The notes beneath the pieces were generated by a model, which saw only the letters and a program-made list of their open reading frames with translations, did no database searches and was not told the DNA's origin. A stretch of DNA of 64,000 nt from Chloroflexota bacterium (GTDB lineage: Bacteria; Chloroflexota; Anaerolineae; Aggregatilineales; Phototrophicaceae): NCBI GenBank assembly GCA_014338005.1, contig QUBZ01000009.1, positions 1 to 64,000 on the forward strand, in the 5' to 3' direction. A program made the position numbers and the translations under genes. This document shows positions 27,939-31,606 of the stretch, piece by piece (the first letter of the stretch is position 1; each line of letters starts with the position of its first letter).

Positions 27939-29366
27939 ATGGTTTTTATGCACAAGCGACTCCTCGCATATCAACTGCCGCTGATTTTAGGGCTGGCTGC
28001 CGCCGTCCGGCTGGCTGTGCTGCTGGCCTTCCCGCAGGTGTTCGCTTTTGAGCAGACCGGCGCGGTACACGGTTCGGACGCTTACGACGCCTACGCGCAA
28101 AATCTGCTGGCGACAGGTGTTTATGGGCGCACGCCGGGCGTGCCAGACGCAGCCATCCCGCCGCTGTACAGCTATGCGCTGGCCGCCGTTTACGACCTGT
28201 TCGGGCGCGGCCACGTGCAGGCCGGGCTGTTCCATATCGCGCTGGATCTGTTTTCCATCGCCTGCCTGTTTAACATCGGCAAACGGCTGATGGAAAATCA
28301 AACCGTTGGGGCGCTGGCGAGCCTGTTTTACGCCCTGTATCCCTATCTGATTTTTCAGAACCTGACGCTGATAGACACGCCATTTTTTATGGCGCTGTTA
28401 TACGCCTTCCTGCTGCTGGTCATCCAACTGCGCGAGCGCCCGGTTTTCGATCGCGCCGCCTGGGGGCTGGCGGCGCTGGCTGGGCTGGTGCTGGGCGCGT
28501 CTTTGCTCACGCGCCCGATCACGCCGCCGCTGGCGCTGCTGGTGGCAGTCTGGTTTTTGTTCCGGCTGGACCTGCGGCAGACCATCATCCGGCTGCTGCC
28601 GGTCGCAGCCGTCGGCGCGCTGGTACTCGCGCCCTGGATCGCCCGCAACACGGCGGTTTACCATGCTTTCGTGCCGATGACCACCACCTCCGGCGCGAAC
28701 TTCTGGCAGGGCAACAGCCGCTATACCGTGCCGGTGTTCCGCGCCGGGTACGACGTGCAGTGGACGGCCCCGGAACTGGAAACGCCCGACCCCTACAGCC
28801 GCGAGGCTGACGCCGAACGGTTCGCGCTTGGCTTCCGGTATTTGCGCGAAAACCCGGAAAAAATCCCCGAACTGCTGTGGGTGAAGTTCCTGGTGTACTG
28901 GAGCTTAGACATCGCGCCGCGCTACAACCCGCTGCCGGGCGAACGAATCGGGCTGGACGAAAACGGCGAATTTGTCATCCGGCGGGTGGATGCGGACGGC
29001 CAGCTGCTCACCTATGGCGAAAACGACCCGGTGAACGCCTACGACGAGCCGCTGTTCGACGTGCTGGGGCGGCTCGTCCACCGGTTTTACTGGGGGGGAT
29101 TATTTTTGCTGGGGCTGGCAGGCGGCCTGCTGGCGCTGCGCCGCTGGCGCGAAACGGCGCTGCTGTGGTTCGCGCAGATCAGCATGACGCTGGTTTATCT
29201 GGCCTTTCATCCGTCCACGCGCTACCGCGTCCCCACCGACCCGCTGTGGTTTTTGTTTCCGGCCTATGCGCTGGTTATGCTGTGGGGATGGTGGCGGGGG
29301 CGTCGCCAAAACCTGGCCCCCGCCGCCGAGAACGCTCCATCACATCAGCGCCAGGACGGGGCGTAA
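27939..29366 (+). CDS. GT39-like polytopic glycosyltransferase
   Basis: A 475-aa membrane protein with about nine helices. The N-terminal helix is followed by a loop with 'GSDAYDAYAQNLLATGVYG' (acidic pair as in ArnT/PMT enzymes) and 'IPPLYSYALAAVYDLFG'. The later loop 'RNTAVYHAFVPMTTTSGANF' resembles other GT39-like glycosyltransferases. It probably uses a polyprenyl-phosphate sugar donor. An ATG three codons in (27948) is an equal start candidate, since neither has an SD. It follows a sugar-methyltransferase-like gene by 45 nt, and the two may act in one pathway. Confidence 0.82.
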   Translation: MVFMHKRLLAYQLPLILGLAAAVRLAVLLAFPQVFAFEQTGAVHGSDAYDAYAQNLLATGVYGRTPGVPDAAIPPLYSYALAAVYDLFGRGHVQAGLFHIALDLFSIACLFNIGKRLMENQTVGALASLFYALYPYLIFQNLTLIDTPFFMALLYAFLLLVIQLRERPVFDRAAWGLAALAGLVLGASLLTRPITPPLALLVAVWFLFRLDLRQTIIRLLPVAAVGALVLAPWIARNTAVYHAFVPMTTTSGANFWQGNSRYTVPVFRAGYDVQWTAPELETPDPYSREADAERFALGFRYLRENPEKIPELLWVKFLVYWSLDIAPRYNPLPGERIGLDENGEFVIRRVDADGQLLTYGENDPVNAYDEPLFDVLGRLVHRFYWGGLFLLGLAGGLLALRRWRETALLWFAQISMTLVYLAFHPSTRYRVPTDPLWFLFPAYALVMLWGWWRGRRQNLAPAAENAPSHQRQDGA

Positions 29367-30430
29367 AGCAGGCCGCCGTCGCGCCACAGGCTGTTGAGGT
29401 CGCGCTCCAGACGCAGTTCGCCGCCCGGCCCGAAGTGCCGGGTGTAAATTTCGCCGTAATTACCCACCTCATGGATCACGTTCACCATGAAGTCGTTCGC
29501 CAGGCTAAGCTGGCTGCCGACGCCGGTTTTAACGTCGAGGAAACGCGCCACATCCGCGCCGACGCGGTTAATATAGGCTTCTTCGCCTTCGTTCGGCTGG
29601 CGTATGATGGTATTGATATTTTCGCTGGTGATGCCCAGTTGTTCGGCTTGAATCAAGCCGAGTATCGTCCAGTTGACAATATCTGCCCACTGCGGGTCGT
29701 CGCTGCGGTAAACCGGCGCGATTGGCTCCTGCGTGTACAGGTGTTCCCGTCCCTGCCAGACGGTATAAGCCGCCGGATCGGTCAGCCGCTGGCGGGCGGC
29801 CTCCAGGTCTATCAACCCGGCGCTGTAAGCCTGGCAGCGCCCCTCGGTAAGGGCCTGGACGGCCTCCGCAGCCGTTGGCAGCGTCACCGGCTGGTAAGAC
29901 AGCCCGCGAACCGCCATCGCCTGCCCCAGACTGGCCGCCGCTGTCGAACCTTCGACGATGCAGATCACCCCGCCGTCCAGGTCGTCCCATCCGCTAAGGC
30001 TGCTGTCCGTGCGGGTGATGAAGGTCTGGCCGGTGTAGAAGATGATCGTCCCGAAGTCCAGGCGCGGCCTGGAATCGAGCGAGAGCGTCCAGACGACATT
30101 CCGCAGCAGCACGTCAATCTCGCCGGATTCAAGCGCATTCAGGCCGCTGTCGCCGCTGAAGGGTACAAGCTGCGCGGCGGTCGCATCGCTGAATACCGCC
30201 GCCGCCAGCGCGCGGCACAGGTCTACCTCAAAACCACGCAGTTCGCCGGTGTTGGGGTCTAAAAAGCCGAAACCGCGCAGGCTCTGGTTGAGGCCGCAGG
30301 CCACCCCCCCCCGCGACAGTACCGAATTAAGAGTCGGGCCGATGACGGCAGGGGTGGGTTCTTCCTGCGCGAGGGCCGCGCCGGCCAGCGCCAGCAGCAA
30401 AACAGCGATCAGTCCAAGCCGTTTGAGCAT
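29345..30430 (-). CDS. general L-amino-acid ABC transporter substrate-binding protein
   Basis: About 361 aa. Signal peptide 1-22 (LLLALAGAALAQ). The mature part is an SBP family 3 protein of the AapJ/BztA type: 'GVACGLNQSLRGFGFLD', 'GFEVDLCRALAAAVF', 'EIDVLLRNVVWTLSLD', and a long C-terminal region with 'HEVGNYGEIYTRHFGP'. No permease or ATPase is adjacent. The gene lies 10 nt after the selenoprotein gene on the same strand, so they are likely one transcript. A run of nine G (plus-strand C at 30304-30312) lies in the codons after the signal peptide. The 3' end overlaps the GT39 gene on the other strand. Confidence 0.9.
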   Translation of the reverse strand: MLKRLGLIAVLLLALAGAALAQEEPTPAVIGPTLNSVLSRGGVACGLNQSLRGFGFLDPNTGELRGFEVDLCRALAAAVFSDATAAQLVPFSGDSGLNALESGEIDVLLRNVVWTLSLDSRPRLDFGTIIFYTGQTFITRTDSSLSGWDDLDGGVICIVEGSTAAASLGQAMAVRGLSYQPVTLPTAAEAVQALTEGRCQAYSAGLIDLEAARQRLTDPAAYTVWQGREHLYTQEPIAPVYRSDDPQWADIVNWTILGLIQAEQLGITSENINTIIRQPNEGEEAYINRVGADVARFLDVKTGVGSQLSLANDFMVNVIHEVGNYGEIYTRHFGPGGELRLERDLNSLWRDGGLLYAPSWR

Positions 30431-30440
30431 AGATTCCCTT

Positions 30441-30740
30441 TTATTCGTCCTCACTAAAAAATTGTATGCCTGGCGGGCGGATGGCCTCCAGCTTTTCCAG
30501 GATGCGGGCGCGGATTTCGCCGGGTTCGGCGTGGCGTCCGAGTGCCTTTTTAGAGAACACCAACTCACCGTTGACCGTCACTTCAAATTTCCCGCCCGTG
30601 TCGGGGATCAGCAGCCAGGAGCGGATAAACACCTCGATCTCACGTTCGCCCAAAATTTCATTCGTCAAACTGACGACGCGCGGGGTATATTTTCATACCG
30701 CGCAGTATTCAATGGCGATGTCTATAAGCGGATACTGCAT
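30441..30740 (-). CDS. selenocysteine-containing SelT/SelW/SelH (Rdx) family protein
   Basis: Read with TGA as selenocysteine, this is a 99-residue thioredoxin-like Rdx protein beginning MQYPLIDIAIEYCAVU. The UGA (30695-30693) sits at the second residue of the CxxU motif, where relatives have Cys or Sec. Everything on both sides is in frame and fits the family: 'IAIEYCAVUKYTPR' before and 'GKFEVTVNGELVFSKKALGR' after. The ATG at 30740 has AAGGAG six nt upstream, whereas the frame after the TGA has only an internal TTG (30668) and no SD. A SECIS-like hairpin follows the UGA. Proteins of this family are thiol or selenol redox proteins of undefined partner. Expression needs SelA/B/C/D encoded elsewhere. 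A genuine stop or sequencing error is the alternative. Confidence 0.85.
30662..30695 (-). promoter_or_regulatory. candidate bacterial SECIS element with its UGA codon
   Basis: In the mRNA the UGA is followed by 16 nt, then UCGUC (30676-30672), loop AGUUU (30671-30667) and GACGA (30666-30662): five Watson-Crick pairs and a 5-nt loop with G at loop position 2. Known bacterial SECIS elements lie just after the UGA inside the coding region and carry G in the first two loop positions, so this fits. SelB would bind the loop. Confidence 0.6.
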
Positions 30741-30808
30741 CAGGCACTCCTTAAGTTTTCGTTATATACTAAAACCTGTACCCCCTGTATATGAGGAGGA
30801 AGGGCAGA

Positions 30809-31606
30809 TTGAATTATATACAGGATATTCTAAACGAATACACCGGGATGCGCGACAACGGCGCGGAGAGCAAAGTTGCTTTGCAGGCGCTTCGGGCGCA
30901 CATTGAAAAGCTTAACAAAAGCCAGCGGGAGGAATTAGCCTCGCTTATTCGCAGTTGGGAAAATCAAAACGCTGCTGAAAAAACCCGGTCGCGCCCACAT
31001 TCGGTCATCAAGCCTATTATCGGCAAACCGTCCCCCGCTGAGCCGCCCGCGCCGCCCGTTCCGCCTGCCCCCCAGCGGGAAAATGTCATTACCTGGGTGG
31101 CCTGCCCCAACTGCGGCAAAGCCAACCAGCGGCACGAAGTGTTTTGTTATGCCTGCGGCCACCTGCTGGATACAACGCGGGGCGAACAGAACACCAAACA
31201 TTTTGCCGATGCCAGCGACTTAATGGACGCGGGTTATTTTGGTGCAGACTCGGTGCTGGCGCTGCGTGCGCGCGGTTCGACCGAAGTATACGAAGTGCGC
31301 CCGCAAAAATCCGACCATGAAATCATCGTCGGGCGCAGCTCCAGCGGCAGCGCCATCGCGCCGGATGTAGACCTGAAAGACCGGCAGGCCGCCGACCTGG
31401 GCGTTTCCCGGATGCACCTGGCGCTGCGTTATGACCCTGACCAGAAAGCCATCCTGGTTTCCGACCTGGGCAGCGCCAACGGGACATACATCAATGGGCA
31501 GCGCGTTCTGCCGAAGGAAGTGCGCGCGCTGCGTCATGGCGACGAACTGCGTCTGGGGCGGCTGATGCTGATCGTTTCGTTCCGGCATCCCGGCGAACAA
31601 ATCTAA
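30809..31606 (+). CDS. FHA-domain protein with zinc ribbon
   Basis: A 265-aa cytosolic protein. A helical N-terminus (1-60) and Pro-rich linker lead to a zinc ribbon 'CPNCGKANQRHEVFCYACG' (about 100-120) and a C-terminal FHA domain (about 160-260) with the phosphothreonine-binding signature: GR in 'IIVGRSSSG', 'GVSRMHLALRYD' and 'GSANGTYINGQRV'. It probably reads Ser/Thr-kinase phosphorylation such as that of the kinase at 12505. The start is TTG at 30809, because AGGAGG ends 9 nt before it; the ATG at 30791 overlaps that SD. It diverges from the selenoprotein gene. Confidence 0.88.
   Translation: MNYIQDILNEYTGMRDNGAESKVALQALRAHIEKLNKSQREELASLIRSWENQNAAEKTRSRPHSVIKPIIGKPSPAEPPAPPVPPAPQRENVITWVACPNCGKANQRHEVFCYACGHLLDTTRGEQNTKHFADASDLMDAGYFGADSVLALRARGSTEVYEVRPQKSDHEIIVGRSSSGSAIAPDVDLKDRQAADLGVSRMHLALRYDPDQKAILVSDLGSANGTYINGQRVLPKEVRALRHGDELRLGRLMLIVSFRHPGEQI

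Follow-up and report, generated by a model that had tools for sequence, protein, structure and literature searches.

A candidate selenoprotein W gene with an in-frame UGA in a Chloroflexota genome, and its loss together with the selenocysteine machinery among relatives

The locus raises the question of whether a TGA located sixteen codons into a small gene ends its protein or is read as selenocysteine (Sec). In the window analyzed here, a 64,000-nucleotide stretch of Chloroflexota DNA, a minus-strand frame opens with an ATG at 30740-30738 in the context AAGGAG-N6-ATG and meets the TGA, past which 83 further codons are open, to a TAA at 30443-30441. The elements of this frame are:

30441..30740, minus strand: selW (Rdx family) coding sequence, 99 aa with the TGA as Sec (Pfam PF10262 and TIGR02174 matches, alignment, AlphaFold model)
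30747..30752, minus strand: Shine-Dalgarno sequence AAGGAG, 6 nt ahead of the ATG (read from the sequence)
30693..30695, minus strand: in-frame TGA, codon 16, predicted Sec codon of a CxxU motif (frame and conservation in relatives)

A preliminary description had reported the ATG with its perfect AAGGAG, the TGA at 30693-30695, and the 83 codons beyond it, and every coordinate was correct. It had also anticipated that a routine gene call would yield only a truncated protein from an internal TTG; under the standard code, the sole open frame at selW is indeed a 75-aa ORF from the TTG at 30668. Standard gene calling would thereby cut the catalytic motif off the protein. The 99-aa read-through product is MQYPLIDIAIEYCAVUKYTPRVVSLTNEILGEREIEVFIRSWLLIPDTGGKFEVTVNGELVFSKKALGRHAEPGEIRARILEKLEAIRPPGIQFFSEDE. 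When both strands of the whole window were scanned for TGA codons that have behind them both an open frame and a hairpin of SECIS-like form, the selW site was the only match.

The read-through product matched the Pfam Rdx family (PF10262) with 59.4 bits (cut-off 22.6; E 4.2e-16), compared with a weaker E of 1.1e-8 for the 75-aa ORF, in agreement with the Rdx-family hallmarks noticed earlier in the continued frame. Its best NCBIfam score, 70.3 bits, was obtained with the Campylobacter-type SelT/W/H equivalog (NF041051); this is below the cut-off of 88, so the protein was not assigned to that equivalog, and the broader TIGR02174 (CXXU_selWTH) was passed with 51.7 bits (cut-off 34.2). Residues Y12, C13, and Sec/Cys16 are invariant in an alignment of 25 homologues. 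The AlphaFold model (mean pLDDT 85) has a thioredoxin-like fold that places CxxU in the loop after the first β-strand (strand 6-13, helix 19-30). A profile search with the product retrieved SelW-related solved structures, and by sequence profile and AlphaFold comparison the fold is like those of 2fa8, 2oka, 2obk, 2p0g, 3dex, and mouse SelW (2npb). The top matches to the model were 2fa8, 2oka, 2obk, and other bacterial SelW-related entries (TM by target 0.84-0.90), with mouse SelW ranking lower. Identity to the solved structures is about 24-35%, and the CxxU of selW is represented by Cys in the two structure alignments shown.

Knowledge of bacterial SelW-like (SELENOW-like) CxxU selenoproteins goes back at least to 2005-2006 (PMC1088965, PMC1794560), and a 2026 review lists them (PMC13188914). 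With 48 genes they were the most abundant family of the Sargasso Sea set (PMC1088965), and 10 SelW-like genes were counted in the 2006 survey that also counted three selenoproteins in Chloroflexi (PMC1794560). The gene described here shares with them the Pfam family PF10262, the CxxU motif, and a bacterial SECIS right behind the UGA, and the assignment of Chloroflexota selW to this already known kind of selenoprotein is well supported.

Because the standard code leaves only the 75-aa ORF, selW could instead be a truncated gene or pseudogene, with translation stopping after codon 15 or starting at the internal TTG and the CxxU motif never made. However, codons 1-15 are under purifying selection (pN/pS 0.17, and 0.21 from the internal TTG onward), the ATG and ribosome-binding site are kept among homologues, and the internal TTG overlaps the hairpin described below, which together with the features of a true relic (see below) makes truncation very unlikely.

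The locus was compared across 61 genomes (its own and relatives, most of them metagenome assemblies). Twenty-seven of them keep the TGA at the selW position, as do nearly all of the Chloroflexota loci that were inspected in named genomes. The preliminary description had proposed looking for Cys homologues in related genomes; these were found (G025 L012 and G028 L029), and their Cys sits exactly at the TGA position. Two marks of a bacterial selenoprotein, a UGA aligned with the Cys of homologues and a frame kept on either side of it, are thus present. The existence of Cys homologues, and a contig that is probably metagenome-derived, would also suit a sequencing or assembly error in which the real codon is TGC or TGT and the product is a Cys-containing Rdx protein. 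A 95%-identical relative nonetheless has TGA at the same position, which argues against such an error, as do the other genomes with the TGA and the covarying hairpin behind it; the error is extremely improbable and is in effect refuted by independent genomes. That the frame stays open under a changed code does not in itself demonstrate Sec: TGA might have been reassigned to another amino acid such as Trp, or a near-cognate tRNA might read through it leakily. The neighboring substrate-binding protein gene, however, genuinely stops at TGA, homologues carry Cys rather than Trp at this position, the genome encodes a tRNA-Sec with anticodon UCA, and the gene vanishes along with the Sec machinery. 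Reassignment or leaky read-through is therefore left with a negligible probability.

A hairpin is found just downstream of the codon:

30662..30676, minus strand: bacterial-type SECIS hairpin, 16 nt past the UGA, stem UCGUC/GACGA (30676-30672 with 30666-30662) and loop AGUUU (30671-30667)

This 5-bp stem with its 5-base loop (UCGUC-AGUUU-GACGA), whose distance from the TGA is fixed, is formed by all 27 TGA loci from the related genomes. Among 71 distinct selW sequences (TGA loci and further genome-contig loci), 65 have the full stem and six lack it in this exact register (e.g., L114, L115, and L122); after random synonymous recoding it formed in only 13.3 +/- 3.1 of the 71 (maximum 27 in 1000 trials). 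In a 32-sequence alignment, two-sided changes occur at all five stem pairs, with 18 such cells compared with 3.3 in shuffles. The covariation value of 0.465 compares with 0.236 for shuffled alignments and at most 0.175 when the partner is slid, and the signal is gone when the partner is moved by 1-3 columns. Synonymous divergence falls to 0.19 in codons 17-24 from 0.64 and 0.59 in the flanking regions; as judged from these values, the drop is an RNA constraint added to the protein constraint. The stem is missing from both Cys-selW genes. A bacterial SECIS is expected to be a hairpin just past the UGA with a small apical loop containing a G (PMC1088965); the selW hairpin has this form, with an invariant G as the second base of its loop.

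The genome around the window (4.82 Mb in 214 contigs, 96.8% complete) was then considered for the machinery. A complete Sec system had been implied by the preliminary description, for which absence of selB and selC would have been fatal; all four genes are present and the reading stands. SelA scored 542.6 bits, SelB 364.8 bits (a 621-aa ORF), and SelD 356 bits, and tRNA-Sec (selC; anticodon UCA) lies at C66:4459-4555, the four genes being on four different contigs. selA adjoins, on the same strand, a gene for a peroxiredoxin-like (AhpC-TSA) protein (G000:C18:7646-9435), and that gene has no TGA. SelD itself contains an in-frame TGA, MENIRLTSLVACAG-U-ASKLG (gene at L051:86-1141, G000:C183; TGA at L051 128-130), followed after 26 nt by the hairpin GGCGCA-AGUUU-UGCGCC. 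The TGA and most of this hairpin are kept in 20 relatives. The selD hairpin lies further from its TGA than that of selW, and the AGUUU loop is identical in the two, with similar loop variants across selD genes. A common loop in these unrelated genes fits recognition of both by one SelB, a predicted interaction, and points to what the SelB of this lineage probably reads. Among the families tried in this genome, no selenoprotein beyond SelW and SelD was found; three molybdopterin oxidoreductases and thirteen AhpC-TSA matches had no TGA.

Across the 61 genomes, an Rdx gene with one TGA is present in 27, a Cys version alone only in G028, and both in G025. SelB, rather than tRNA-Sec model matches alone, was used as the marker of the Sec machinery. 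Other long-arm tRNAs reach about 52 bits on the tRNA-Sec model (one in the present genome was confirmed as tRNA-Leu), and because such tRNAs pass the cut-off in some SelB-less genomes, tRNA-Sec matches alone were not counted as presence. SelB was over the cut-off in 27 of 27 genomes with TGA-SelW and in 14 of the 34 others, leaving 20 without it (Fisher p 2e-7, with relatedness ignored); no SelB was over the cut-off in G028, which has Cys-SelW only. In two genomes of the same order, other combinations were seen: the tRNA-Sec of G049 is strong (76 bits) and no SelB is over the cut-off there, and G054 has SelB beside tRNA-Sec and a SelD lacking an in-frame TGA. Rdx genes were found in 181 of 400 genomes of a phylum-wide sample, and about two thirds of the matches listed have one TGA and no other stop. 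Since TGA-SelW is common in the phylum, many Chloroflexota genomes are probably miscalled in the same way. Among named records, the closest are metagenome-assembled genomes of Chloroflexota/Anaerolineae, some of which bear the name Aggregatilineales.

Within the genus, the loss of Sec decoding can be followed as a natural experiment, as 11 genomes keep both SelW and SelB and six have neither (p 8e-5), one of the six with a decaying gene. Best tRNA-Sec-like scores are at most 47.7 bits in the six and at least 63 in the 11. In this genus, selW is flanked on one side by a divergent FHA/zinc-ribbon gene and, downstream, by the gene of a substrate-binding protein (SBP), represented in the window by:

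30791..31606, plus strand: zinc-ribbon/FHA-domain gene, divergent, conserved neighbor on the other side (synteny)
29345..30430, minus strand: substrate-binding protein SBP_bac_3 (PF00497), 361 aa, probable operon partner, starting 10 nt past the selW stop

Both neighbors are kept in G003, G004, G009, G010, and G015, with no SelW match between them. The sixth genome, G016 (85% complete), has no SelB, SelD, or convincing tRNA-Sec and keeps a SelW relic at the same site (L142:1268-1450). The relic reads MQYPLLDSAFEYGAV*NDT, then, after a deletion of about 37 residues, KKAFVRRAEAGEIRAAIVKKLAAIRPPGIKLDQED; Cys13 has become Gly, the TGA is kept, and the SECIS region is deleted. With its deletion and lost Cys13, this true relic looks unlike the selW gene of the window, contrary to what a pseudogene there would suggest. 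In a tree of the two flanking genes, G016 falls outside the clade formed by the other five SelW-less genomes, which implies at least two independent losses of selW. Coupled loss is the expected behavior of a Sec-dependent gene and is hard to explain with TGA as an ordinary stop.

The preliminary proposal that this TGA is read as Sec is thus supported by the machinery, the Cys homologues, the covarying hairpin, and the coupled loss. At the level of sequence, the codon, frame, hairpin, machinery, conservation, and coupled loss are established. Given that relatives retain the codon, the hairpin, and the machinery, and that genomes without the machinery have the gene missing or in decay, this is almost certainly the gene of a bacterial selenoprotein W of the Rdx/SelW-like CxxU type, with the UGA at 30695-30693 decoded as Sec. 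In the proposed mechanism, SelA and SelD would supply Sec-tRNA and the selenium donor, SelB would recognize the hairpin starting 16 nt downstream through its AGUUU loop, and tRNA-Sec(UCA) delivered by SelB would decode the UGA. The product would be a cytosolic thioredoxin-like thiol/selenol oxidoreductase acting via Cys13-Sec16, and its transcript is probably common with that of the amino-acid-type SBP.

The preliminary description had placed the redox gene in one transcript with an amino-acid binding protein. The linkage part of this claim holds: besides the 10-nt gap, 48 of 80 Chloroflexota loci from named genomes have an SBP homologue (identity down to about 33%) downstream of selW, in every case on the strand of selW and in 44 of them within 400 nt. 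Co-transcription itself is what this arrangement suggests. Compared with NCBIfam, the SBP was nearest to amino-acid-type binding proteins, with none over the cut-off. The pairing of selW and SBP is real, and a regulatory or redox link between them may be envisaged. Four Cys are invariant among 48 aligned SBP sequences and were considered as a redox connection to SelW; this idea was dropped, as the four Cys are presumably typical of AapJ/BztA-type proteins and the SBP is retained in genomes that lost SelW, which indicates that it is independent of SelW. The open-access literature, to which the search was confined, contained no description that we found of SelW in Anaerolineae or of its conserved partner genes. 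Three features appear to be fresh: that SelW and the machinery are lost together, with a relic left in one genome; that selW and selD have a common SECIS loop; and that the binding-protein partner is conserved. A broader and rather doubtful proposal is that Sec-SelW and the adjacent orphan amino-acid-type SBP work together as a conserved pair in Anaerolineae, perhaps as the redox arm of a nutrient or redox sensing unit, and that Sec decoding in the genus is kept chiefly for the sake of SelW (and SelD itself), so that SelW and the machinery are lost together. In G025, the genome with both versions of the gene, the TGA copy (L039) has the binding-protein gene nearby on its contig, and the Cys copy (L012) does not.
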